A stretch of 64,000 nt of DNA from Rhodococcus sp. 06-462-5 (GTDB lineage Bacteria > Actinomycetota > Actinomycetes > Mycobacteriales > Mycobacteriaceae), in NCBI RefSeq assembly GCF_002258315.1, contig NZ_NOYD01000001.1, positions 186,001 to 250,000 of the forward strand, written 5' to 3'. Positions 3,288 to 64,000 of the stretch are shown here, piece by piece; within the stretch, counting starts at the first letter, position 1; every line of letters starts with the position of its first letter. The translations under genes were made by a program, and so were the position numbers. Under the pieces are notes generated by a model, which made no database searches, had not been told where the DNA came from, and saw only the letters and a program-made list of their open reading frames with translations.

Positions 3288-5695
3288 GGTCTCTCGTACC
3301 CTTCGTCGGCCGGGTCGGGTTGACCTCTGAATCGGTGCCAGAGGCGTCGACCTGCAAGTAACAGTAGGAGAGCACCGGCGCAGGCGGTAATTATCGCCAG
3401 TGCCTGACCGTATGCGTTCGATCGCACCGACACCGTCGACACTTCACCGAGCCGGGAGCCGTCGAGCGTCGTGACGGAGAAGTCGACGGACAGATTGCGG
3501 GTGTCGTCCACTTCGGCCGGGACGGTGATGGTCCGTGATCCGCGGGCCGGAAGTTGGGTGACGCCGACGTCGCTGATCGTCATCTCCGGCGGCGCATCGA
3601 CCCGGAGCAGCACGTTGACCGGGACCGGAAGGTCGTTGCGGGCGACGAGCAGCAGCGGGCTCTGCTCCGAGGCGAGGGTGTAGACGCCGCCCGGGGCCAG
3701 CACGGTCACCGATCCGTAGATGGTGTCGAGTCCGATGCGGATGGCGGCGAGTCGGTCGCGCGCCATGGTGCCGGTTTCTTCACTGGCGGCGCTCGCTCGA
3801 CCCGCCGTCGACAGCGCGCGGAGCATGTCCTCACGCAGCGGGGCGGTGTACAGGCGCGGGGTCAGCTCGGACTGCGGATCCTCGACGAGCGATTGCATCA
3901 GGGTGTTCACGCGGGCGCTCTGCGATCGCACCAGGTCGATGGTGCCGGTATCGAGTTCCGTGACCGCGTCGATGCTGCTCACCGGGGTGCCCGAGGTGGG
4001 CTCGGCGAGCAGCTCGGACAACGGCCGCGGCGTCGCCAGACCGGACCGCAGCAGCGAGGACACCGTCGACAGAATCGCCGACGGTTCGTCTCCCCCCGCG
4101 GTCCAGTACTGCGGGGGCGCGACGGTGACGGTGCGCCCGGGGCGATCGGTGCCGACGAGCGCATGGAAGTTCACAGCCCCCAACGCGTCCTGCAGGCGCG
4201 CGGTACGTGAGTCGGTGGCGAGGTCGAAGCGCTGCTCGGAGGGGGTGAGGGCAGGGGTGGACGGGGTGTTCCCGACGCCGGCGAGTGCCGCTGCGGTGGC
4301 GGCGTCGTAGTGGGTGGCGGCCAGGGTCTCGGTCTGCTGGGTTTCCGACGGCTGGGTTTCGGACGAGACCAGCAACGAGGTCGGAGCCGAGGTCGGCGGG
4401 CTGATGCTGTTGTCGGCGACCAGCACGGTGCCGGTGCCTGCCGTTCGCAGGGCGTCGGCGGTGATCGCGTCCACCCCACCGGTGCTGCTCCAGGTGAATC
4501 CGCGCGTCGAGGTGGTGCCGAGGATGCCGTCGACGATGTCTGCCGGGGCGCTGACGGCGCTGCTGAGCAACGTGGGATCGCCGATGTCGGCCACTGCCCC
4601 CAGATCGGTCTGGGCGAACGGCATCGCCGTCACGCAGGTGCTCGACGCGATCGTTTCCAGTCGTGACAGCCACTGGGCTGCGGCTGCGCTTCCGGTGCCC
4701 TCGCGGGTCGTGCTTGCAGGATCGGCCGGGTTGTCGACGACGAGGTAGCCGCGGGTCATGTTCGAGACGGTGACGAGCAGGTCGGGATCCAGGCCGATAC
4801 ACAGGCTCGACGCCAGTCTGCCCTCGGGATCCAGGCCGGGTTGCGTCGCGAATTCGACGGCCTTGAGCAGGGTGTCGAGTCGCCCGCCTGCGGCGAGTTC
4901 GCCGGCGAGTTCGTCGTCGATCAACCGAACGCGCTCGTCGACGGAGCCGGGGATTCCGGCAGCGAGGCGAGGAATGTCGGCCAGCGGCCACAGGACCGTC
5001 ATCGCGACGGGGTTGCGGGTGTTGGGCGGCAGTGGCATCGCGCCGGGGGCGGCGGGGTCCATCTCACCGGGGTTGCGGGGCAGTCCGACGACCGGGAGCA
5101 GGAAGCGGGCGTCGTCGAGTCGAGCGGTTCCGCCGTATTCGGGGGTGCCGTTGACGTTGAGCAGCAGCGGGTAGACGCCAGGGGCCTCGATTCCCAGCGA
5201 GGGTTCGGTGGTGCTGCGCAGCTGCATCGACATGTCGAACTGGCGGCTCTCGTCCTTCTCCAGTGAGTCGGCAACCGTGACGAAATCGCCGACGCGCTCG
5301 AATCGGTCCTGGTCGAGGGTCAGCGAGGTCCGCAGTCCGGCCGTGGTGTCGACGGCGGCAGCGGCCTGCATCCGGACACTGACGTCGTCGACGCGTCGGT
5401 CCCCGGTGTTTCTCACGGTGGCGCGGACCGTCACGAAGGGGTCGCTGCTGGTGGTGACGGTGGAGGGCGCGACGGTCTCGATGCTCAGCGTCAGGAAGGG
5501 GTTGCCGTCCTGGGTCATCGGAGTGTCCGGAACAGCGCTGGTGGTGCCGCTGCTGTCGCCGACGGAGGAGTCGGGTTGGGCGGCGGCGTCGGGAAGCTGC
5601 GTGGGGACCAGAGTCGCGGTGCCGACCGACGGTGCCACCGCAAGAAAGAACGTGGTCAATGCGGCGGCAGCGACCTTCCGGGCCCGCACGATCAC
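3284..5695 (-). CDS. DUF6049 exported membrane-anchored protein (Rv3909-like)
   Basis: 803 residues from GTG 5695, which overlaps the upstream Nudix stop as GTGA; a second GTG at 5689 is also possible. An N-terminal hydrophobic segment (about residues 6-24) ends near an Ala-rich cleavage region, so the bulk of the protein should lie outside the membrane. A single transmembrane helix at about residues 763-782 is followed by a short basic and acidic cytoplasmic tail ending GYERP. Length and position between a Nudix gene and mviN match M. tuberculosis Rv3909 (about 800 residues). Its function is unknown; fixed linkage to murJ suggests an envelope role. Confidence 0.88.
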
Positions 5696-6261
5696 TTCCC
5701 GCCGGGGATGGGTGCGCCCGAGTTGCCACTGCTCATGTCGTCGATCAGGCGGGTGGCGATGGCGGCGAGTTTGCGTTCGTCGGCGTAGGCGAGCCTGGAC
5801 GGCAGTTCGGTCAGTGGAACCCACGCGACCTCGGTCACTTCGAGGTCCTCGTCCGAGAGTTCACCGCCGAGGAATCGGAGGAGGTAGTGGTGGACGGTCT
5901 TGTGGACGCGTCGTCCTTCGGTGACGAACCAGTAGTCGATGCTGCCCAGCGAGGCCAGGACGGTACCGCGGATGCCGGTTTCCTCGGCGACCTCGCGCAT
6001 GGCCGTCTGTTCGGCCGTCTCGCCCTGCTCGATGTGACCCTTGGGCAGGGACCAGAGGAGGCGTCCGCGGCGGTCGGTGCGGCCGATCAGGGCTGCGCAG
6101 CGTTTGGCGGGCGGCCCGTCGAGGCCGTCGACCACCAGGCCTCCGGCCGAGGTTTCGCGGACGGTCCGCAGCTTCGGTGCTTCGGTGTCGGCGCGTGCCT
6201 GACGCCGCCGCGGGTTGCGGCGGCTCCTGTTCGCACGTTCGGCAGCAGACACCCGATCCAT
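5692..6261 (-). CDS. mutT4: Nudix hydrolase (MutT4-like)
   Basis: 189 residues from ATG 6261; longer upstream frames would run into the divergent pcnA promoter. A basic N-terminal tail of about 40 residues precedes the Nudix fold. The Nudix box is canonical: GHIEQGE, seven residues, then REVAEETGI, supplying the metal-binding glutamates. The family hydrolyses nucleoside diphosphates linked to another moiety; the substrate cannot be read from the sequence. It is the first gene of the Nudix-DUF6049-murJ operon, in the same order as Rv3908-Rv3909-Rv3910. Confidence 0.9.
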
Positions 6262-6340
6262 ACTAGTTGCCTGTGCGCACTCTTCTACCGTGCCGCACCG
6301 CGGGGGTGAAGGCCGGGACAATCGATCGGCTCGGCGCAAG

Positions 6341-6346
6341 TAGGCT
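6341..6346 (+). promoter_or_regulatory. Candidate -10 box for pcnA (leaderless)
   Basis: TAGGCT lies 8 nt before the GTG start of pcnA, and no Shine-Dalgarno is visible between them. A start at +1 would make the transcript leaderless. No good -35 element is seen. Confidence 0.45.
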
Positions 6347-6354
6347 CTTCCACC

Positions 6355-7821
6355 GTGGCCGATCAGTCCTTGTCCTCCGTTTCCGCCGAGCACACCGATG
6401 CCCGCCGGGAGAGGTTGCTGGCGGGAGCTGCTGTGACGCTGCGCGAACTGGCTCCGGTGTTGACTCCGCTCGGTGCCCTGTTCGCCGCGGCCGGGCACGA
6501 GCTCTTTCTCGTCGGCGGCACGGTGCGGGACGCAGTTCTCGGTCGACTCGGAACCGATCTGGATTTCACCACCGACGCCAGGCCCGAGGAGGTTCAGTCA
6601 TTGCTGACGGGCTGGGCGGACCATCAGTGGGACACCGGCATCGCGTTCGGGACCATCAGCGCGGCCAAGGACGGCCAGACGATCGAGATCACCACCTATC
6701 GCACCGATTCCTACGATCAGGTGTCCCGCAATCCCGAGGTGCAGTACGGCAACAGCCTCGAAGAGGATCTCGTTCGGCGCGATTTCACCGTCAACGCCAT
6801 GGCGGTACGTCTCGGAGCCGACGGCACCCAGGAGTTCGTCGATCCGCTCGGCGGTATGGACGCATTGCTCGAGGGTGTTCTCGACACCCCGTCGGCACCG
6901 GAGGTGTCGTTCGGAGACGATCCACTGCGGATGCTGCGGGCCGCGCGGTTCGTCTCCCAGTTGGGCTTCACGCTGATGCCTCGGGTGCACCGAGCCATCG
7001 AGGACATGGCCGATCAGATCGACCGCATCACCGCCGAGCGAATCCAGGTGGAGCTGGACAAGCTGATCCTCGGCGCGCACCCGATCGACGGCATCGACGT
7101 GATGTGCGAGACGGGTCTGGCGCAGCGCATCATTCCCGAGGTGCCCAACATGAAGCTCGAGATCGACGAGCATCACCAGCACAAGGACGTGTACTCGCAC
7201 TCGCTGACGGTGCTCAAGCAGGCGATCGATCTCGAGGACGGCGATCCCGATCTCGTATTGCGTTGGGCCGCACTGCTGCACGACATCGGCAAGCCCGACA
7301 CCAAACGAAACGAACCGGGCGGCGGAGTCAGCTTCCATCACCACGAGGTCGTCGGCGCCAAGCTGGTGCGAAAGCGTATGCGCGCCTTGAAGTATTCGAA
7401 GAAGATGATCGAGGACGTCTCGCATCTGGTGTTCCTGCACCTGCGGTTTCACGGTTACGGCAAGGGTCAGTGGACCGACTCCGCCGTCCGCCGCTACGCC
7501 ACCGATGCCGGCGAGCTACTTCCCAAGCTGCACAAGCTGGTTCGAGCCGACTCGACCACGAGAAACAAGCGTCGAGCTGCGGCGCTCCAGGCCACCTACG
7601 ACGACCTGGAAGAACGCATCGCCCGCATCGCCGAGCAGGAGGACCTGGCTCGCGTGCGGCCCGACCTCGACGGCAACGCGATCATGGAGCTGCTGAACAT
7701 CCCGGCCGGACCCGACGTGGGCAAGGCCTGGAAGTTTCTGAAGGAACTGCGCCTCGATCGGGGACCGCTGTCCCGCGAGGACGCCGAGGCCGCGCTGCTC
7801 GAGTGGTGGCCCACGCACTAG
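6355..7821 (+). CDS. pcnA: CCA tRNA nucleotidyltransferase / poly(A) polymerase family
   Basis: 488 residues from GTG 6355. The nucleotidyltransferase core has the GGTVRD motif (about residue 55) and the DLDFTTD metal-binding aspartates. An RNA-binding region follows ([13 protein letters not shown], about 182-194). A C-terminal HD domain shows HDIGKP (about 309-314) and a downstream HHHE cluster. The enzyme builds or repairs the 3' CCA end of tRNAs. Length matches M. tuberculosis PcnA (Rv3907c, 480). It faces away from the Nudix-DUF6049-murJ operon, as in mycobacteria. Confidence 0.95.
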
Positions 7822-52941: not shown

Positions 52942-54495
52942 GTGACGACCGAACCCGAGCGCAAGGGTCGAGCAGTGGCCAGCCCCGGTCGCCTCGACTC
53001 GGCGAGTGCAGCAGACCGCGATCTACCCAGTCGTACCGATCCGATGACCGAGGAACTGTCCTCGGTCATCGGCGGGCCGGTCGGCAAGCACGCGCTGATC
53101 GGTCGGCAGCGGTGGTTCACCGCGCTACGGGTCGTTCTGCTGCTGGCGGTGGTATTCCTGTGCTTCGGTTGGTTCGCCAAGGCTGCGTGTATCCAGCAGG
53201 CACCGGTGGGACCGGGCGGCGAGCTCGGACTCGATTGGAGTGGCAGCAGGCAGTACGTGGCGATGTGTTATTCCGACACCGTGCCGCTCTACGGTGCGGA
53301 GCGACTCGATCAAGGTGCATTCCCGTACAAGAAGTCCTGGGAAGAAACCAAGGCCGACGGGTCGAGTCAGATCAGGTACATGGAGTACCCGGTGCTCGCG
53401 GGGCTGTACCAATACGGCTCGATGGTCGTCGGAAAGGCCTGGAACTCACTGAGTTTCCTGCCTCAGGCGTTGCCGGTCGTCGTCTACTTCAACGTGGTCG
53501 CGCTGGGATTGGCCGTCGCCTGGTTGGTCACCGTATGGGCCACCGCGATAGCTGCAGGACGCCGTATCTGGGATGCCGCACTGGTGGCGGCCTCGCCGCT
53601 GGTGATCGTGCACGGATTCACCAATTTCGATGCTCTCGCAACGGCTTTCGCGCTCACCGGTTTGCTGGCGTGGGCCAAGAAGCGGCCGGTCCTGGCCGGG
53701 GTGCTGATCGGTCTCGGCGGTGCCACCAAGCTCTATCCCCTGCTGTTCCTCGGGCCCCTGCTGGTGCTGTGCTGGCGCACCGGAAAGATGCGTGAGTGGG
53801 GCATCACCGCCTGCGCGGCGCTCGGGGCCTGGCTCGCGGTCAATCTTCCGCTCGCACTGCTGTATCCGTCGGGATGGTACGAATTCTTCCGGCTCAACTC
53901 CGAGCGCGGTGCCGACCCGGATTCGCTGTACAACGTCGTCACCTCGTTCACCGGCTGGACCGGTTTCGACGGTCCCCTGTACCCGGGCGACAAACCGTTG
54001 GTTCTCAATGCCGTGACGCTCGTGTTGTTCGCCATCGTGTGTGCGTTGATCGCATACATCGGCACGACGGCACCGACGCGGCCGCGGCTCGCGCAACTGG
54101 TGTTCCTGGTGGTGGCCGGGTTCCTGCTCACCAACAAGGTGTGGAGCCCGCAGTATTCGCTGTGGCTGGTTCCGTTGGCCGTACTGGCGCTGCCACATCG
54201 CCGAATTCTGTTGGTGTGGATGACGATCGACGCATTCGTCTGGTTCCCGCGGATGTACTACTACCTGGGTGTGGAGAACAAGGGCCTGCCCGAACAGTGG
54301 TTCACCGCGACCGTCCTGGTGCGCGATGTCGCCGTGATCGGATTGTGCGCGTTGATCGTTCGGCAGATCTATCGCCCGGGCGAGGATCTCATTCGAAACG
54401 GCAGCGCCGTCGACCCGCTCGGTGGCGTGCTCGACGGCGCTGCAGATCGGACGACAACCGCCCGAAAGGTCACATATAGCGGCCCAGCTGTTTGA
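52942..54495 (+). CDS. GT87 (DUF2029) polyprenyl-linked glycosyltransferase
   Basis: 517 residues from GTG 52942, 11 bp after the ponA1 stop. A cytoplasmic N-terminus (about 55 residues) and about ten membrane helices form a GT-C fold. Conserved features are YMEYPVLAGLYQYG after the first large loop, GFTNFDALATAFALTG, GGATKLYPLLFLGPLL and NKVWSPQYSLWLVPL. The family transfers mannose from polyprenyl-phosphate-mannose in envelope glycan assembly. It corresponds in position to Rv0051. Its 3' end overlaps the convergent TerD gene by 26 nt. Confidence 0.9.
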   Translation: MTTEPERKGRAVASPGRLDSASAADRDLPSRTDPMTEELSSVIGGPVGKHALIGRQRWFTALRVVLLLAVVFLCFGWFAKAACIQQAPVGPGGELGLDWSGSRQYVAMCYSDTVPLYGAERLDQGAFPYKKSWEETKADGSSQIRYMEYPVLAGLYQYGSMVVGKAWNSLSFLPQALPVVVYFNVVALGLAVAWLVTVWATAIAAGRRIWDAALVAASPLVIVHGFTNFDALATAFALTGLLAWAKKRPVLAGVLIGLGGATKLYPLLFLGPLLVLCWRTGKMREWGITACAALGAWLAVNLPLALLYPSGWYEFFRLNSERGADPDSLYNVVTSFTGWTGFDGPLYPGDKPLVLNAVTLVLFAIVCALIAYIGTTAPTRPRLAQLVFLVVAGFLLTNKVWSPQYSLWLVPLAVLALPHRRILLVWMTIDAFVWFPRMYYYLGVENKGLPEQWFTATVLVRDVAVIGLCALIVRQIYRPGEDLIRNGSAVDPLGGVLDGAADRTTTARKVTYSGPAV

Positions 54496-55735
54496 CGGCT
54501 TCACCGGCGTGCTTGGCCTGGATGCCGTCGCCGATCGCCTGGAGCTTCCATTCACTGCCCTGGCGATACACCTTGGCCATCACCAAGCCGGTGAAGGGCA
54601 TGCCGCCCTGGAGTGTGAAGCGAGCGAGTTCGGTGTTGGTGGTGTTGTCCACCAGCCGGCAGAACGCGTTCGCGACCTGCTCGAACGTCTGACCGCGGTA
54701 CGAGGTGACGGTGAAGATGATGCCGGTGACGTGCTTGGGCACCCGCGTCAGGTCGACTACGATCACCTCGTCGTCGCCCTCGCCCTCGCCGGTGAGGTTG
54801 TCGCCCTGGTGCACGATCGAGCCGTCCTTGGCCTTGAGCTGCCCGTAGTAGACGACATCGTTGACGTTGCGGTCGGCGAGCATGATCGCCGACGCGTCCA
54901 GGTCGATGTTCGCGGCTCGGCCTCCGCCGCCGAACAGTCCGCCCTTCTTCGGAGTGGTCACCGGATCCCAGCCGAGGCCCATGCGGATGACCGTCAGAGC
55001 CACGCCGCCGTCCTTGCGGAGGGTGACCTTCTGGCCCTTCGTGAGGCTGACGGGCTTGGACTTGGTGAGGCTGACTTCCGGAGCCTCGGTACGGACCGGG
55101 GCGGCGGGTGGTGCGGGAGGCGCAGCGGGCGGCGGTGGAGTGGCGGGAGCGGGAGGAGGCGTCGGTGCGGGAGCAGGGGCGTCGTCCACTGACACACCGT
55201 GGTCGGTCACCAGGGCGGCGAACCCGCCGGCGTAACCCTGCCCGACGGCTCGCACCTTCCAACTTCCCTGACGGCGGTAGATCTCCAGTGCGATCACGAT
55301 CGACTCCGAGCTCAAACCGTCGATCGTGTACTCGTACAACACGTTTCCGCTCGCGTCGCTCACTCGCGCGACGGGAGCGGCGGATCGACCGAAGTTGCTC
55401 GACGCGTCGTCGAGGGTGATGACAGCGCGGATCTGCTCGATGTCGGCGGGAACTGCAGCGAGCGACACGGCGAGCCGGGCCGGTCCGCCCTGACCGGGCT
55501 CGAGGCGTACGCCGGGGCCGGTGGGCTGGTTGAAGAACACGAAATCGGCGTCGGTGCGCACTTTTCCGGCGTCGGTGACCAGTAGCGCAGACAGGTCCGC
55601 GGGTACGGCCAGCGAGATGGAGACGACGACGTCACCGACGGTGAGTGGGCCGTTCTGACCCTTGGACAACGGTTGACCGGCCGGAGCAGACAATGTGATG
55701 GACTCTCTCTCGTAGTGCTGGTTACCGTCATCCAA
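54470..55735 (-). CDS. Double TerD-domain protein (tellurium/stress response family)
   Basis: Up to 421 residues. The start is uncertain: TTG 55735 opens the frame, and TTG 55693 (preceded by GAGAGAG) is the alternative. The first TerD-like domain (about 14-185) is followed by a Pro-rich linker and a second (about 222-421). Domain two has the calcium-binding set DLDAS and GDNLTGEGEGDDE plus VVDLTRVP; domain one is more degenerate (DADFVFFNQPTGPGV). TerD proteins bind Ca2+ and occur with Ter-linked stress operons. It lies near the PRTase/lyase/HAD operon at 58873-63154. Confidence 0.9.
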   Translation of the reverse strand: MDDGNQHYERESITLSAPAGQPLSKGQNGPLTVGDVVVSISLAVPADLSALLVTDAGKVRTDADFVFFNQPTGPGVRLEPGQGGPARLAVSLAAVPADIEQIRAVITLDDASSNFGRSAAPVARVSDASGNVLYEYTIDGLSSESIVIALEIYRRQGSWKVRAVGQGYAGGFAALVTDHGVSVDDAPAPAPTPPPAPATPPPPAAPPAPPAAPVRTEAPEVSLTKSKPVSLTKGQKVTLRKDGGVALTVIRMGLGWDPVTTPKKGGLFGGGGRAANIDLDASAIMLADRNVNDVVYYGQLKAKDGSIVHQGDNLTGEGEGDDEVIVVDLTRVPKHVTGIIFTVTSYRGQTFEQVANAFCRLVDNTTNTELARFTLQGGMPFTGLVMAKVYRQGSEWKLQAIGDGIQAKHAGEAVKQLGRYM

Positions 55736-56691: not shown

Positions 56692-57438
56692 TCATTGCCT
56701 CAGCGCGACCGCCACGTGCCCTTCGATCTCCGACGCCAGCCCGGCACTATCGGCGGGCGCAATCTCGATCGACTCTGCGGAGTGAACGATGTACCGGCCG
56801 TCCCGCTCGAAGTCCATCCAGAAGAACGAGACGGCATCGGTGTCGCGGCGGTTGTCGTAGGTCGTGCCACGCGCGACGATGATCTCGCCGACTGCCGACC
56901 GTGGGCGGTCGAAGAACGACCGGAACTGCTCGTCCGCTGTCGCTCCTCTCGTTGCGGTGGACAGATGCGATCCACCCGATTGCGCTGCAGCAGTGACGCG
57001 TTCGAGTCGCTCGGCCGGTCGATGGCCTGCAGCGACATTCGGCACGGATCCGAGAACTGCGGCGGGGGCGCCGTCCGGGCCGGTCAGTTCGATCGTGACG
57101 TCACCGCCGGAGGAGGCGTCGGGGCCCGGTTGCTGAGTGAGCACCGCGGCCGTGTCGTGACGAATCGCTGCGTGACTGCGCATGATTGCATAGCGGGAAT
57201 CGGTTGTCTCGCAGCGACATTCGATACGAACGATCGGGTCGACGATGCTCCGAACAGCTGCGCCGAGCTCCTCGTCCATCATCGCATCGATCCTCGCCGA
57301 CGCCTCCAGTCGCAGTTGCCGCAGTTCGTCCACGGTATCGACGTCGATGGTGACCGCCAGGGGGTACGGCAGTCGGTCGCGTCCGAATCGACTGCACAGC
57401 ATCATGAAGTCGATGCCGGGCATGGTCCAGGTCGTCAT
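56692..57438 (-). CDS. EspG-like ESX secretion-associated protein
   Basis: 248 residues from ATG 57438, 2 bp after the upstream stop. The mixed alpha/beta layout and blocks (DVDTVDELRQLRLEASARIDA, RYAIMRSHAAIRH, then a beta-rich C-terminal half with RGTTYDNRRDTDAVSFFWMDF) resemble EspG chaperones, which bind PPE-type substrates and carry them to a type VII secretion system. It directly follows a PPE/WXG-like gene, its probable client. No ESX core genes (eccB-E, mycP) lie in the window. Confidence 0.78.
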   Translation of the reverse strand: MTTWTMPGIDFMMLCSRFGRDRLPYPLAVTIDVDTVDELRQLRLEASARIDAMMDEELGAAVRSIVDPIVRIECRCETTDSRYAIMRSHAAIRHDTAAVLTQQPGPDASSGGDVTIELTGPDGAPAAVLGSVPNVAAGHRPAERLERVTAAAQSGGSHLSTATRGATADEQFRSFFDRPRSAVGEIIVARGTTYDNRRDTDAVSFFWMDFERDGRYIVHSAESIEIAPADSAGLASEIEGHVAVALRQ

Positions 57439-57440
57439 CG

Positions 57441-58832
57441 TCAGCCGCCGAGTACCGGAGGTGCAACGAGAGGTAGATCGCCGATCAGTTCGCTGCCGTT
57501 GCTCACGTCGACCAGGTAGCCGGGAGTCGCGTGTTCGCCGCCGTTGTCGCCGGCTCCCCGCGCGCCTGCTGCGCCCATGGCACCCATTCCCGGCATGCCG
57601 TGGGCTCCCGCACGGCCGGCCGCTGCCGCGCTGCCCAGTCCGCCGCCCGCACCGTTGCTGCCTGCCCCGTTGCCGCCCGCCCCGCCGCCGATCGGAGGGC
57701 CGAGAACCGATCCGCCGTAACCCGATCCGGCACCGGCACCGGAACCGCCTGCGCCTGCATATCCGGCACTGCCGCCGTAGCCCGAACCACTGGATCCTGC
57801 GAAGCCGCCGCTGCCCGGTCCCGTTCCGCCGTAGCCGCCGCCGGGACCCGCGCCGACCCCGGATCCCGCACCACCACCGGATGCGCCGGGCCCGGTGGCC
57901 GATGCGGCACGGGTTTCACCGGAGTTGTCGGCCGGAGGCAGGGAGCCCGAACCGCCGGCCCCCGCCTGCTCCGATGGCGTACCGGCCCGACCCGTTTCGG
58001 CACCCTCGGCACCGCCGGGTTGCGCCTGTGTTGCAGCCGTCGGGGCCGCCGAATCCGCCCCACTCGCACCACCGCTTCCAAAAGCCGAACCGAGACCACC
58101 GCCCCCGACGGAATTGCCGAGGCCCCAGCCGCTGCTGGAACCGCCACCGTCGGCGACCGGATTGTGCGCGGCCGGCAGTACCGGGACCTGGGAATCGGAC
58201 TGCAGCACCCCTGGTACGTAGACCGAGCGCATGATTCGACGCGCTTCCTCCTGCTGCTCCTCCCGGGCCGACACTGCATCCTTCGCGGCGAAGGGAATGG
58301 GCAGAAGGGAATCGATCATGGCGCTTCCACCCGGCGGAACCACCGGCGGCATCCTCGACTGCGTCTGGGTGAAGCCGGAGTGCGCCTCGAGCAATTTGTT
58401 GCTGATCAGGCTCATCGAGGTGGACAACGAGTTCGCCGACGAGACGTAGTTGCCCACACCGCCGCGGACGGCGTCGGCTGTGGGTCCCGACCAACCCGAC
58501 GCCATGGCCGCCTCGATGCCGGACCGGAAGCCGTCGGATCCGGTGGTTGCGGCGGCGGACAAGTCGTTCCAGTTCTTGGACGAGCCTTCGATGGGGCCGG
58601 TTCCCAGCGATCCGACCATGGCCACGATCTGCTCGTGCGACATCACCTCGAACGCCTCGGTGATGACCACTTCGGTCGGCTCGAACTCGCCGCGGTAGTC
58701 GAGGGCCACGTTCGCCTTCTCGAATGCAGCTTCCAGGACGGATCCGAGAAATTCGGGGCCCATCGGGGTCACGAACGTACTGGTGACGATGTTGTCGATC
58801 GCCGCTGCGAGTTCCTCGTACGGATCCGTCAT
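57441..58832 (-). CDS. PPE/WXG100-like ESX substrate with Gly-rich tail
   Basis: 463 residues from ATG 58832, chosen for the GGGGTGG upstream; GTG 58838 is possible. The first 170 residues are helical with a WSG turn (SGWSGPTADAVRGGV) in the WXG100/PPE manner. A long Gly/Ala/Ser-rich low-complexity segment (about 225-440) follows, then a short ordered end. Such plan is common for orphan ESX substrates in Nocardia and Rhodococcus. It is co-transcribed with the EspG-like gene and lies 40 bp after the HAD gene. Confidence 0.72.
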   Translation of the reverse strand: MTDPYEELAAAIDNIVTSTFVTPMGPEFLGSVLEAAFEKANVALDYRGEFEPTEVVITEAFEVMSHEQIVAMVGSLGTGPIEGSSKNWNDLSAAATTGSDGFRSGIEAAMASGWSGPTADAVRGGVGNYVSSANSLSTSMSLISNKLLEAHSGFTQTQSRMPPVVPPGGSAMIDSLLPIPFAAKDAVSAREEQQEEARRIMRSVYVPGVLQSDSQVPVLPAAHNPVADGGGSSSGWGLGNSVGGGGLGSAFGSGGASGADSAAPTAATQAQPGGAEGAETGRAGTPSEQAGAGGSGSLPPADNSGETRAASATGPGASGGGAGSGVGAGPGGGYGGTGPGSGGFAGSSGSGYGGSAGYAGAGGSGAGAGSGYGGSVLGPPIGGGAGGNGAGSNGAGGGLGSAAAAGRAGAHGMPGMGAMGAAGARGAGDNGGEHATPGYLVDVSNGSELIGDLPLVAPPVLGG

Positions 58833-58872
58833 GCCCACCCCTTGCCCTACGTCCTGTCTCCCCGACGAACAG

Positions 58873-59676
58873 TTAGACGCGGCGCACGGCGGTTCGGTTC
58901 CGCAGCCATTCGAGAATTTCCTCGCTGGCCCGGACGCCGGAGGAGTCGGTGACGGTCAACCCGGGCCGGGTGAATCCGAGCAGCTCGAGTTCGCCATGCC
59001 GTGGTCGGATCGCAGCATCGGCGGCGATGAGCATCTCGGCGTCGAGTGCGCCGTCACCGGCGGCGAACAGTCGCGCCTCGGCTTCCAGCGTGCCGTCCTG
59101 GATCAGTCGGGACCGCACCTCGGCAACCGCAGAGCTCTTGCACACCGCGTTGGGCATCGTGTAGATCTTCCGACCCTGCTGCGAGACGTTCCAGTCCCGA
59201 GCGGCGCACCACTGAGACCACTCCGTGACGAAACCCTCGGGCACAGCGGCCGTGTCCACCACCAGGTAGCAGAACAGGCCGTCGGCCTCGCGGTACTTGA
59301 GCACCCAGTCCTCGGAGACCCGCGCTCTGAGCTCCGCGCCGATGCCGGCCAGATCCAGGTCGAAAGCGTTGCGCCACTGCATGTCCGGCTCACCGTCGAC
59401 GAGGATGTTGCCGCCGTTGCTGGTGATGGCATACCGCCAGGGTGCCCCGGGCAGCGCGATCCGCTGAAACTGTTCGATGGTTCGCGTGGTGGTCGGCACC
59501 ACGACCGTGGTCTCGCTCAACTCCCGAAGCAGCGAGACCGAGTGAGAGCTCATGTAGGACAGCGGTTTTCCCTCGTACATCTCCACGCACTCGAACGAAT
59601 CGTCCAGAAGTACACCGAGTGCGCCCTCGGAGAAGATCATCGTGCGGTCGAGATCCACCGCGACGACAGTGCTCAC
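58873..59676 (-). CDS. HAD-superfamily hydrolase of the Ter-linked module
   Basis: 267 residues from GTG 59676, which overlaps the upstream stop (GTGA). HAD motif I is DLDRT (Asp8 and Asp10), motif II is TTTRT, motif III is the Lys in KIYTMPNAVCKSSA, and motif IV is GDGALD. The cap is of the Cof type. In Ter loci a HAD phosphatase is part of a set predicted to make a nucleoside-like compound. It is translated directly after the PRTase fusion. Confidence 0.9.
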   Translation of the reverse strand: MSTVVAVDLDRTMIFSEGALGVLLDDSFECVEMYEGKPLSYMSSHSVSLLRELSETTVVVPTTTRTIEQFQRIALPGAPWRYAITSNGGNILVDGEPDMQWRNAFDLDLAGIGAELRARVSEDWVLKYREADGLFCYLVVDTAAVPEGFVTEWSQWCAARDWNVSQQGRKIYTMPNAVCKSSAVAEVRSRLIQDGTLEAEARLFAAGDGALDAEMLIAADAAIRPRHGELELLGFTRPGLTVTDSSGVRASEEILEWLRNRTAVRRV

Positions 59677-62006
59677 GACGCGTCCCCGCTCGAGACGTTC
59701 TTGATCAGCCCCATGCACGAATAGGCGAGGTCGGGCACCACGTCCACCGGCACTCCCCTGGCCGCGGCGAGCATTCGAATGTGTTCGTGCTCGGGCGCAT
59801 CGGCGTCCCGCACCAGTACCCGCCACGGGACCCGGCGCAGCAGCACCCGAGTGGTTTCGCCGACTCCGGGCTTGACGAAATTGACGTGCGAGATGCCGTA
59901 CTCCTCACGCACCTTCTCCACCGATGCCCATCCCGTCCAGGTGGGGGTTCGGTCCGAGGCGAGCACGGCGGTCACCGAGGCGGCGACCTCGTCCCGGACG
60001 TCGTCGAAACGCGCAGCGACGGTGTCGAGCAGGTGACGCGAGACGTCGTCGGGGGCGAGATCGGCGTAGTACTTCGCGCCGTGGAAATCCCCGGGACGAA
60101 TCAGGCTGTCGTTGAGGACGGTTCGTGAAACCAACCCCGAGACGGTCGAATTGAGGCAGGCGGACGCGATGAGGAAATCGTCGCGGGTGCCGTACGTGCG
60201 CGCGCAGTTGCCCGGATCGGCGAGCACGGCGAGGTCGTCGTCGAACTCGGCACCCGGAAAGTCGCGGAGGGCGGCGGTGAGTTCGCGAGCGATCGCACCC
60301 TTGCCGGTCCAGCCGTCGACGAACACCACCGAGCGTGAGTCGTGGTGTTCGGCGAGGTAGCGCAGTGCCACGGCGTCGATGCCTCGATCACGCACGATCG
60401 AGACGGCGTAGTGCGGAATCTCGATGCCGTGGGCCGCGAATGCCCAGCGGCGCATCAGAATTCCGACGGGTGTGCCCGCCCGAGCCAACGACGCGAGTGC
60501 GATGTCGTGTCCGCGCTCGGCCAGCACGACCTCGGTGACGGTTCCGACCGCGACCGCCAGCCGTGACGCGCTCTCCTGCAGCACCTTCTCGAACAACTCG
60601 CGGTAGGCGAGATCCGGTTGATACTCGACCGGAAGCGATTCGGCGTAGTGGGCCTCGCCGGCCTGAATGCGCTGCTCCCGCTCCTCGATTCCTGCTTCGA
60701 GTGAGACCGACGAGAGGTCCTTGAGCAGCCACGTCACTTCGTCCGCTGCGTACGAGCCGAATTCGGGTCCGCGGAGCGGGCGTGCGCGCCGGGAAACCTC
60801 GAGCGCCACCGGATCGGCTCCCGTCACGACCACCAGGAGTACGTCGGTGCCCGAGGCGGCGAGTGTCTCGGCGGCGGCCGCGAGGGTGTCGGTGTCCGCG
60901 GGGGCATCGGCGACGAGGACCAGTGTGGTCTCGTGCGGGGCGGACGCGTTGTAGAGGTAGCGCAGTCCCGATTCGTCCTCGGGTGCAGCGAATTCGAAAC
61001 CTCGGCGTAGGGGATAGTCGGGCACGTCCAGCACGTATGCCGGTGACCGAGTTGTGGTTTGGAACAGGGCATGGTGTCCCCGTTTCTGCAGGGCCGCCGC
61101 CAGCCGGAGCGGCAGATACATCAGTTCCTCGTGGCCGATGACGACCACCGGTGCCGATTCGGGGAGCGAGCCATCCACGGTGGCTGCGAGAGCGTCGATC
61201 GCGGAGTCGAAACCCGCCGCGTCGGATCGGAGGAATCCGTGGCGCCCGCCGTCGGGCAGGGTCGCGGGCCAGTGGGCGTCGACTCGATGAACCGAACCGG
61301 ATTGTGCAGCAGTGGGATTGAAGACCGGATCGGGTAGGTCCAGCACCGTCTCCACCAGTCCCGGCTCGAGCTCCACCGATCCCTGCGCCAGGCTCACGTT
61401 GTCGATCCGAACGCCGAGTTCGGTTGCCACCGCAGCGGCAGCAGCAAGATGCTCGGCGGTGCGCATGTCCACCAGGGATGCGATGACGTAGTGCGCGCGC
61501 CCGGCCGTCGAGTGAATCTGTCGCAACGCATCCAGCGCGGTCGCTCCGGTCGAGATCTCGTCGTCGACCAGTATCAACGGCAGGTCGCCGGCGAGAAGGT
61601 CGGCCGATGTGGGCATCAGCAGGTGGTCGGTGGCGTGCGAGTGCCCCTCCTCGAACTCGCCGTGCACCGTCATGCCGGGTACGGCGCGACGCGTCGAGTG
61701 CAGGTAGCAGTGCGCGCCCAGAGCCGAGGCGACCGTGTGGCCCAATCCCGTTGCTGTTTCTGCGAATCCGAGAACATCGACATCGGAACCGTCCACCGCG
61801 GTGTGCACCAGGGCAGCCAGTTCGTTACCGGCGGCGATCACGACGTCCGGATCGACGGGTATGTGTTTGCCGAGCACCGTCGAGACCAGCAGGTGGGCGC
61901 GGCGGGGGTTGCGACGCAGGCCGGGACGCACCAATTGTGTTGCTGTCCAGGACGACGACGAACCGGTGTCGGTGAGCGCGATGCCGTCGGCCGGGTTCGC
62001 GTTCAT
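59673..62006 (-). CDS. Phosphoribosyltransferase-TRSP-StiP triple fusion (Ter-linked)
   Basis: 777 residues from ATG 62006, which overlaps the upstream stop (ATGA). Residues 1-230 are a phosphoribosyltransferase with the PRPP loop ILVDDEISTGATA (145-157). About 285-410 is a TRSP domain with its name-giving TRSP at 319-322. About 415-777 is StiP-like: FGSYAADEVTWLLKDL, VEYQPDLAYRELFEKVLQ, GTPVGILMRRW, VFVDGWTGKGAI, and conserved cysteines near NCARTYG and YSCMGL. These parts belong to the Ter-linked nucleoside-like metabolite pathway proposed by Anantharaman, Iyer and Aravind. PRTase-TRSP fusions are known; inclusion of StiP in the same chain is less usual. Confidence 0.88.
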   Translation of the reverse strand: MNANPADGIALTDTGSSSSWTATQLVRPGLRRNPRRAHLLVSTVLGKHIPVDPDVVIAAGNELAALVHTAVDGSDVDVLGFAETATGLGHTVASALGAHCYLHSTRRAVPGMTVHGEFEEGHSHATDHLLMPTSADLLAGDLPLILVDDEISTGATALDALRQIHSTAGRAHYVIASLVDMRTAEHLAAAAAVATELGVRIDNVSLAQGSVELEPGLVETVLDLPDPVFNPTAAQSGSVHRVDAHWPATLPDGGRHGFLRSDAAGFDSAIDALAATVDGSLPESAPVVVIGHEELMYLPLRLAAALQKRGHHALFQTTTRSPAYVLDVPDYPLRRGFEFAAPEDESGLRYLYNASAPHETTLVLVADAPADTDTLAAAAETLAASGTDVLLVVVTGADPVALEVSRRARPLRGPEFGSYAADEVTWLLKDLSSVSLEAGIEEREQRIQAGEAHYAESLPVEYQPDLAYRELFEKVLQESASRLAVAVGTVTEVVLAERGHDIALASLARAGTPVGILMRRWAFAAHGIEIPHYAVSIVRDRGIDAVALRYLAEHHDSRSVVFVDGWTGKGAIARELTAALRDFPGAEFDDDLAVLADPGNCARTYGTRDDFLIASACLNSTVSGLVSRTVLNDSLIRPGDFHGAKYYADLAPDDVSRHLLDTVAARFDDVRDEVAASVTAVLASDRTPTWTGWASVEKVREEYGISHVNFVKPGVGETTRVLLRRVPWRVLVRDADAPEHEHIRMLAAARGVPVDVVPDLAYSCMGLIKNVSSGDAS

Positions 62007-63154
62007 CGCTGTGCCAGTGCGGTCAGTAGATCCACGAACGTGATCCCCTCGTTGGTGACGCCGAACGCCCTGGCGCGCACCACCGTCTGCTTCGCCCAAT
62101 TGCGGTGCGGGCCCAGCTCGTTCATCTTGTTGCGGTAGCCGGACGCTTGGACGCCACCCTGGTCGGAGGAGAGAATGTCGAGTGCGTCGTGGTACTCCTC
62201 GTGCGTCACCGCGGACAGCGCGTGCACGGCAGGCACATGCGAGGGGTGGATGACGGTCTTGCCCTGAATACCGTTCGCACGGTCGAGTGCCACCTCGCGC
62301 AGCAGGGCGTCGAGGTCGCTGCTGACCATTTGCTGGCGGAAGCGTACGGCCTCTTGATCGACGAACGGCGTCTGACGCAGCAGTGGACGGAACATGCGTT
62401 CGTGGTCTGCGAAGTACTCCCACACCGGCCCGGTGATGACGAATCCCGATCCGTCGTACCGGCCGAGGTGATTGACGATCGCGCTGATGACGTCGGCGAC
62501 GACGCGGACGTCGTAGATCGTCAGGTCGCGGTCGCGGCGGATGCCGAAGGTGCCGCACATGTCGGTGGCGCCGATGCGCACCGCCAGCACGACGTCGCGG
62601 TATTCACCGAGCAGTTCGCGAATGGCAACCAGTTCCGCGTCGCGGGTCTCCCGGTGCACCACTTCCGGTGATTCGAGAACCGGCATGGCGAACAGACGGC
62701 TGCCGTGTGTCTTCGACGCAGCGACGATCTCGTCGAGGAACTCGGCTCCGCGTGCCGCGGTGAACTTGGGTACGACGAATCCGGCGAGCCCGGCGGCACC
62801 GTGGTCGAGGCCTGCGCAGATGCTGCGGATGTGCGCGGCGGTACGGGCCCGAACGAACACGAGCGATCCCGAACCCGAGAGTTCGTTCAGAGTTCGCACG
62901 GTGTTGGCCAACGCTTCTTCCAGATCATGGTCCGCCACAGCGTCTTCGAGGTCGATGACGATCGACCGCACGCCCTCTTCGGTGCGTTTGTTCACCGTCG
63001 CAGTCAGGTCGGGACGGGTGGCCGGGATGTACAGCGTTGCGCCGAGAGCCGTTGCCACGAGGTCGTTTCCGTCGCTCGTCTCGATGTCTTCCGGTTGCAT
63101 GAAGAACACTCGTTCACGGGTGTCTGCGTCGAGATGGCGAAAGTGTTGCACCAC
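62003..63154 (-). CDS. CitE-like C-C bond lyase (Ter-linked)
   Basis: 383 residues from GTG 63154 (or 63151), with AAGGA just upstream; longer frames have no ribosome site. A TIM-barrel of the citrate lyase beta/HpcH type: ATLYIPATRPDL near the start, IVIDLEDAVADHD with the metal-binding acids (about 88-100), GFVVPKF, FAMPVLESPEVVHRE, and GIQGKTVIHPSHVPAVH near the end. It is the C-C bond lyase of Ter-linked gene sets and probably acts on a small metabolite in the same pathway as the PRTase and HAD enzymes. Confidence 0.88.
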   Translation of the reverse strand: MVQHFRHLDADTRERVFFMQPEDIETSDGNDLVATALGATLYIPATRPDLTATVNKRTEEGVRSIVIDLEDAVADHDLEEALANTVRTLNELSGSGSLVFVRARTAAHIRSICAGLDHGAAGLAGFVVPKFTAARGAEFLDEIVAASKTHGSRLFAMPVLESPEVVHRETRDAELVAIRELLGEYRDVVLAVRIGATDMCGTFGIRRDRDLTIYDVRVVADVISAIVNHLGRYDGSGFVITGPVWEYFADHERMFRPLLRQTPFVDQEAVRFRQQMVSSDLDALLREVALDRANGIQGKTVIHPSHVPAVHALSAVTHEEYHDALDILSSDQGGVQASGYRNKMNELGPHRNWAKQTVVRARAFGVTNEGITFVDLLTALAQR

Positions 63155-63174: not shown

Positions 63175-64000
63175 TCAGTGCGAGGTACGCATGCGGTCGA
63201 TCACGCCTGCGATGAAGTCCGAAATGGTATCCAGATCCTGCAGATATGACCAGTAGTCGGGGTGGGTACCCGTCAGCGCTGTGCTCGCCCTGTCGATCCG
63301 GGCGAGCTGAGCATCCAACACCGAGCCCCATTCGGCAACCAGACCGCGATTGATCGCGAGTTGTTGAGCGTCACGAAGTTTGAACCGCACTTTGTTCTCG
63401 GTCTCTTTCGGATCGGCCTTGACCGCGCGCAGGAGACGAACGCGGTCGGTGACCGCGTCGACCAGCTGTTCGGCATCACTGAGGTGTTGACGGGCTTGGG
63501 TCACCAGATCCAGTGCGTGTTCGGGATTGCCGGCGCCGAGTGCAGAACGGGCCGCGCTCAGATCCTCGTCTGCCTGCTCGATGTGGCGCGCACTCGACCG
63601 CTCGTTGCGAGACAGGTCTGCCGAGCTCTTGGCGTTGAACTCCCGAAGCAAGCTCGAGAAGGCAGGCGCAATGCCCTCGGATCTCGTTCGCACGGCTTCG
63701 ATTCGGGTGCGCACCGAGGCCAGTGCCGTTCTGGCCTCCTGAAGGCGTCCCGGGGCCGAATCCACTGCAGCACGCAGTGCGGCCGCCCGGTCGCGGACCT
63801 GGGCGGCATGCTCTCGGGCGCGCAGAGGGTCGCGCTGATCGGTCTGCAATTGCGTTGTCGCCGAATCGAGTTCGCGCCACGCCTGCCGGAGTGAGGGGTA
63901 GCCGGCAAACTGCTCGTCGACGGTGGAGCGGGCTGCGTCGGCCTCGGCCAAAGCGTCCTGGACCAGGCGCGGGGTCGCGGCGAACTGAGCCGAGGCCTGC
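63175..64000 (-). CDS. Coiled-coil protein, possibly C-terminal part of a TPM-domain protein (5' end outside window)
   Basis: The frame stays open to the right edge, so at least 275 residues are present and the N-terminus is missing. The visible part is almost wholly helical and charged: REHAAQVRDRAAALRA, LREFNAKSSADLSRNERSS, and EHALDLVTQARQHLSDAEQLVD. This resembles the C-terminal region of actinobacterial TPM-domain membrane proteins, but the end (DTISDFIAGVIDRMRTSH) is not the usual Gly-rich one. It ends 20 bp before the lyase start and is probably the preceding gene of the operon. Confidence 0.6.
   Translation of the reverse strand, partial: QASAQFAATPRLVQDALAEADAARSTVDEQFAGYPSLRQAWRELDSATTQLQTDQRDPLRAREHAAQVRDRAAALRAAVDSAPGRLQEARTALASVRTRIEAVRTRSEGIAPAFSSLLREFNAKSSADLSRNERSSARHIEQADEDLSAARSALGAGNPEHALDLVTQARQHLSDAEQLVDAVTDRVRLLRAVKADPKETENKVRFKLRDAQQLAINRGLVAEWGSVLDAQLARIDRASTALTGTHPDYWSYLQDLDTISDFIAGVIDRMRTSH

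Follow-up and report, generated by a model that had tools for sequence, protein, structure and literature searches.

A recurrent four-domain fusion at a Rhodococcus Ter locus, with two candidate phosphoribosyltransferase-type sites

The window is the whole 64,000-nucleotide stretch analysed here, from contig NZ_NOYD01000001.1 of Rhodococcus sp. 06-462-5, and it carries on its minus strand a gene (59673..62006) for a single chain of 777 residues. The gene is one open frame with an ATG at 62006 and a stop at 59673, inside a stop-to-stop frame of 59673-62603. The start is supported by a four-base ATGA overlap with the C–C bond lyase gene directly upstream. A Pfam search finds four domains in the chain, each well over its cut-off: the phosphoribosyltransferase (PRTase) domain PRTase_2 (PF15609; residues 25-209, 61380..61934; E 9.2e-63, 211.6 bits vs a cut-off of 28.8), TRSP (PF12500; residues 252-377, 60876..61253; E 1.7e-32, 112.4 bits vs 25), StiP (PF11202; residues 417-663, 60018..60758; E 1.2e-104, 349.4 bits vs 28.7), and the L7Ae-like PELOTA_1 (PF15608; residues 690-770, 59697..59939; E 9e-36, 122 bits vs 25). 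The search bears out a sequence-only reading of this DNA that had placed PRTase, TRSP, and StiP domains within one chain. That reading had drawn a single StiP-like region from 415 to 777; StiP is present there, but the region is really two domains, and PELOTA_1 had been overlooked.

The loop of PRTase_2 for phosphoribosyl pyrophosphate (PRPP), VDDEISTG (residues 147-154, 61545-61568), and the TRSP motif C-terminal to PRTase_2 (residues 319-322, 61041-61052) lie where the same reading had put them. StiP bears a PRPP-type loop, VDGWTGKG (60297-60320), and PELOTA_1 contains the stretch KPGVGETTR (59847-59873), all on the minus strand. The PRTase_2 loop is of the classical two-acid type (VDDEISTGAT), with DDE..TG.T invariant in 75 aligned rows, and an HSH...H stretch is conserved in the same PRTase_2-TRSP alignment, which leaves out L091, L108, L111, L114, L116, L118, L126, and L128, as well as L122, which has no PRTase_2 part. 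By its StiP part, the closest named relative is from Rhodococcus sp. 14-1411-2a (97% identity). The fusion protein has no match in PHROGs or PADLOC, and its sole match in NCBIfam, to ribose-phosphate diphosphokinase, is below threshold.

To compare relatives, each locus was classed by running profiles for all four domains against its six-frame open reading frames. Of 119 other actinobacterial loci, 72 have the single-chain form and 47 have the two halves as separate genes. The first set (genome_contigs) holds 80 of at least 590 candidates, those most similar to a query headed by the window, so its division into 56 fused and 24 split loci is no census. Within the 56, L122 is truncated at a contig end, and only its TRSP, StiP, and PELOTA_1 parts are visible. 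The second set, a genome sample of 39 mostly best-scoring loci with the window's own genome excluded, has 16 fused and 23 split. A few proteins are common to both sets, as identical rows, so the 119 loci include some repeats. One more locus, on a Nocardia replicon, is fused, and none of seven other plasmid, phage, and viral-contig loci is (L044-L047, L129-L131; L046 and L131 are one and the same phage). Judged by eye from open-frame lengths, the fusion is present in 24 of 30 genomes of the window's genus, own included, and in 23 of 24 genomes of another genus (g3). The possibility that two genes had been joined by a frameshift or an assembly artefact is rejected, because 72 of the 119 other loci carry the same single chain, among them the nearest relative (L049, StiP part 97% identical). 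The earlier statement that StiP is usually separate is no more than half right: in the examined Streptomyces and Nocardia loci, as in the window's genus, fused genes are common. The domain families and their Ter context are already known, and the four-domain chain is a recurrent fusion present in many public genomes. We found no description of it in the open-licence literature, which excludes a 2012 paper on Ter systems that may well describe it.

When the halves are separate, the two genes overlap by four bases in 45 of 47 actinobacterial loci, or 46 of 48 counting viral contig L129. The two exceptions, Streptomyces rimosus and S. monomycini, lie within an otherwise fused clade and have an in-frame TGA, one codon, and then an ATG between TRSP and StiP (L090 5980-5988; L100 4744-4752), which is probably a secondary split. 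Because of the four-base overlap, a small indel can join the split genes. In a StiP tree of 127 rows, at least nine changes between fused and split are needed, seven of them forced by well-supported branches, against about 41 for shuffled labels; the tree is of a quick kind, built without bootstrap, and some rows sit on long branches. The tree and the conservation counts below leave out the own-genome copies (L001, L002, and L010) and the duplicate phage (L131).

These data bear on whether the fusion has a functional meaning, since always-adjacent, overlapping genes might simply drift in and out of one frame. Fused and split forms are mixed among the Nocardia rows, the Gordonia rows, and the window's genus, and several small indels separate the junctions of one Gordonia pair, as such drift would have it. 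Against this, the fused state is steady in large clades (42 of 44 Streptomyces/Actinacidiphila rows and all six rows of the window's clade) and is hence at least tolerated. We regard drift as a real contender, held at somewhat below even odds, and it touches the fusion only, leaving the coupling of the two halves untouched.

That the halves belong together is indicated by their shared presence pattern, by the four-base overlaps when they are split, and by repeated fusion. Among 301 genomes drawn from the window's family, 151 have StiP (limit E 1e-3) and 152 have PRTase_2 (limit E 1e-20). Genome by genome, the two agree by eye save for one 360-contig draft (G238) with PRTase_2 only. StiP is rare in a phylum-wide draw (10 of 198 genomes, own included). 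Relatives of StiP occur on 2567 of 72,556 plasmid records, and most of the 60 matches listed are annotated as StiP cysteine protease. The sequence-only reading went further and had the domains act on the same intermediate; this is not supported, because fusion shows coupling, not a common substrate.

Three individual loci add to the range of arrangements. Acinetobacter phage vB_AbaM_ME3 (L046 7995-9062 and neighbours) has a module in the order PRTase_2, haloacid dehalogenase (HAD), StiP. Close by are genes that bear the annotations von Willebrand A and chemical-damaging agent resistance protein C, which makes this a phage-borne cluster of Ter type. The viral contig L129 (67.5 kb, from IMG/VR) carries the actinobacterial order lyase, PRTase_2-TRSP, StiP, HAD at 4814-7047, in the split form and with the halves overlapping by ATGA. 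In L012 (1117-3410), which holds a distant StiP/PRTase_2 pair of an actinobacterium (33% identical over 170 residues), VDGWTSGG takes the place of VDGWTGKG, and profiles detect no TRSP or PELOTA_1 in the stretch examined.

The neighbours of a Ter biosynthetic module, HAD, C–C lyase, TerD, and TerC, are all present at the window's locus. The lyase gene (PF15617; 62003..63151, minus strand, GTG start at 63151 inferred) is followed upstream by a gene for a conserved coiled-coil protein (63175..64000, minus strand), whose start at about 64260 is past the window end. Directly downstream of the fusion, and overlapping it by GTGA, is a gene for a HAD-type phosphatase (58873..59676, minus strand). Its HAD assignment rests on weak matches: it has no Pfam match, its HAD-IIB match is below cut-off, and its relatives are annotated as haloacid dehalogenase or trehalose-6-phosphatase. 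Pfam and a TerD search of the genome identify a two-domain TerD protein (54470..55735, minus strand). Past the window end, beyond the coiled-coil gene, lie a divergent TerD gene (C17:250481-251041) and a TerC/DUF475 gene found with Pfam. Near the module in the genome_contigs loci, the HAD gene is present in 80 of 80, the lyase in 78 of 80 (both lyase-less loci start inside the module, at contig ends), and the coiled-coil protein in 67 of 80. Scans for ribosome sites and for promoters and terminators gave nothing above chance.

Two side observations concern this neighbourhood. The coiled-coil protein belongs to no clear Pfam family, and it is on the same strand as the module in 37 loci and on the opposite strand in 30. 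Two genes between the HAD and TerD genes (56692-58838), one of the EspG family (PF14011) and the other PPE/WXG100-like with a long tail rich in Gly/Ala, are parts of type VII secretion within a Ter neighbourhood.

The AlphaFold2 model of residues 406-777 has a confidence (pLDDT) of 90 and matches CriT, PyrR, and HGPRT. The predicted StiP fold is that of a type I PRTase, nearest to CriT of Bcs3 and then to PyrR and HGPRT, with CriT in Bcs3 at the top of the VIA matches. Bcs3 is absent from the StiP matches in PDB profile searches; the likeness to CriT is by fold only. The PRPP-type loop of StiP is nearly invariant in the 127 rows, as are the three loops of the presumed site. StiP looks like a second domain of PRTase type, and the name cysteine protease suits it poorly.

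We propose that the chain is a PRPP-dependent enzyme that has two PRTase-type active sites, ends in an L7Ae-like tail, and acts together with the C–C lyase and the HAD phosphatase, and we give this reading a probability of roughly 0.6. A number of observations weigh against it. The StiP loop VDGWTGKG lacks the second adjacent acid (D-G, not D-D/E) and has one acid, D564. Foldseek alone gives modest matches for StiP (best E 3.6e-4, TM 0.25/0.48), and its list has the pyridoxal-phosphate enzyme IscS at rank 2, with more pyridoxal-phosphate and SIS-type enzymes. Profile comparison barely ties StiP to PRTase_2 in sequence, with P 0.0067 for 8 and 5 rows, uncontrolled, and P 0.25 for 84 and 75 rows. 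The Ter ATP-grasp (PF15632) has no match above cut-off in the genome (one below it, 26.9 vs 29.1 bits, is on another contig), and the proteobacterial pathway may therefore not be the one followed here. To our knowledge, no enzyme activity is known for any member.

The remaining points against it concern proteolysis: were StiP a cysteine protease, the fusion would couple nucleotide synthesis to protein breakdown. RefSeq, current Pfam, and the plasmid annotations all use the protease name, whose origin we did not find in the open-licence literature. In 120 actinobacterial-type rows, C601 and C764 are kept in 120 of 120 each and C617 in 119 of 120, which makes them candidate catalytic residues at most. 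Over all 127 rows, however, there is no invariant cysteine column (best 122 of 127). Of the seven divergent rows, just two retain C601 and one retains C617, and C764 is absent from all seven. All three are missing in L047, a protein that also bears the annotation StiP family cysteine protease. No peptidases are among the fold matches listed for StiP, which is no test by itself. The annotation of phage ME3 uses a PRTase name, and so does a published account, which calls the StiP domain PRTase_1 (PMC5571608). With the PRTase fold predicted and the PRPP-type loops nearly invariant, we consider a protease very unlikely and retain a second PRTase-type site.

In TRSP, we see no usable PRPP loop. Weak evidence from profile comparisons hints at an origin of TRSP as a degenerate PRTase_2 copy: hhalign gives P 0.0027, against 0.15 and 0.25 for two reversed controls. 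When the PRTase_2 profile is run on 75 TRSP stretches, two score 15.7 and 15.5 bits with the register in agreement, where reversed stretches reach at most 0.8 and shuffled ones -0.7; the median of the 75, however, is just -1.4 bits. Other PRTase_2 matches on TRSP, obtained with an iterated profile, may be inflated. Two results count against a copy. The converse search reaches at most 6.2 bits vs a shuffled maximum of 5.6, and the secondary-structure order score of 154, above 60 of 60 segment shuffles, is hardly above that of the reversed string (144.7). This comparison of element order is weaker again for StiP, whose score is equalled or exceeded by 2 of 60 shuffles with PRTase_2 and by 2 of 60 with TRSP.

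In sequence, PELOTA_1 resembles L7Ae weakly (best E 0.014); in Foldseek, it matches 2hvy_D, 1pxw_B, and 3hjw_C at E 0.006-0.008. On this modelled likeness, the tail may bind RNA or serve as a scaffold only. An Rfam search of six loci gives two matches, an ar14 small RNA and a tRNA, and none in the window's locus, where one sub-threshold snoRNA-type match (E 0.23) is likely due to chance.

A tail that may bind RNA raises the alternative that StiP-PELOTA is no enzyme but, like PyrR, a regulator that senses PRPP or nucleotides and binds RNA, attached to the real synthase PRTase_2-TRSP. PyrR rows head the fold list after Bcs3, one acid is missing in the StiP PRPP loop, and the tail has the pattern K-P-G..E.TR. 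On the other side, PyrR binds RNA through its own PRTase domain, with no L7Ae domain involved; the three loops of the presumed StiP site are nearly invariant; and no Rfam family is above cut-off in the window's locus. We judge a regulator unlikely, and return to an enzyme with two PRTase-type sites.

The domains, predicted folds, loops, and gene linkage of this enzyme are computed; the activity of both sites, the order of steps, and the product are what we infer. PRTase_2 would be the N-terminal, APRT/XPRT-like site, TRSP after it probably a related domain with no working PRPP loop, and StiP the second PRTase-type site rather than a protease. The C–C lyase would make or trim an acceptor, the PRTases would add ribose-5-phosphate to it, and the HAD enzyme would then remove the 5-phosphate, the last two steps by analogy with CriT/CrpP and gPRT/PRP. 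The TerD/TerC stress system would thereby receive a small molecule that is nucleoside-like or ribosylated. With the fusion, the two PRTases would be held at 1:1, and split relatives may approach this ratio through their four-base gene overlaps. This differs from the sequence-only reading, in which three domains stood for three steps: probably they do not, given that StiP seems to be another domain of PRTase type, TRSP has no usable PRPP loop, and PELOTA_1 is a fourth domain. Nor does the fusion give the direct hint about the product that had been hoped for, beyond two PRPP-type sites and a phosphatase.

A bolder analogy with CriT would make StiP-PELOTA a PRPP-dependent O-ribosyltransferase that places ribose-5-phosphate on an RNA hydroxyl, with the L7Ae-like tail guiding the RNA, the HAD enzyme removing the phosphate as CrpP does, and TRSP as a third PRTase-type unit. 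We think this improbable. If it were true, the role of Ter loci under stress would be to attach ribose to RNA, or to a polyol or RNA-linked acceptor, rather than only to make a free nucleoside, the TRSP motif would be the remnant of a substrate loop, and the chain would hold three PRTase-like units.

Ter loci are stress-response clusters thought to make a nucleoside-like compound, and we found no identified compound for their biosynthetic half. If StiP is a second PRPP-using enzyme, as we prefer, the label on the plasmid records needs correction, and the product question becomes a simple PRPP assay. The natural fusion, one chain with both transferases in fixed ratio, is convenient for reconstitution.

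The closest known system is the Ter-linked biosynthetic module reportedly described by Anantharaman, Iyer and Aravind in 2012. It reportedly shares with the window's locus PRTase_2-TRSP, StiP-PELOTA, HAD, and the HpcH/C–C lyase, beside TerD/TerC genes. In the six plasmid, phage, and viral-contig loci compared (L044-L047, L129, and L130), PRTase_2 and StiP are encoded separately, and four of these loci have HAD lying between the two. An ATP-grasp is annotated in the Klebsiella and Pseudomonas islands, whereas the window's genome has none above cut-off. By fold, HGPRT/XGPRT and PyrR also resemble StiP; they have the classical two-acid PRPP loop, and the listed PyrR/HGPRT chains are short and single-domain. 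APRT, XPRT, and OPRT share fold and PRPP loop with PRTase_2, which, unlike them, has the conserved HSH...H stretch and an attached TRSP domain. For the chemistry, the nearest precedents are CriT/CrpP and gPRT/PRP, in which a PRTase is reported to add ribose-5-phosphate and a HAD enzyme then to remove the phosphate (PMC10299916, PMC11231755, PMC11127046). StiP shares with CriT/gPRT the PRTase-type fold, a PRPP loop without an adjacent acid pair, and a HAD phosphatase partner (CrpP/PRP). Among the differences, no glycosyltransferase or transporter gene is identified directly beside the fusion in the neighbours that were searched, and StiP bears an L7Ae-like tail and has no sequence match to Bcs3 in PDB profile searches.
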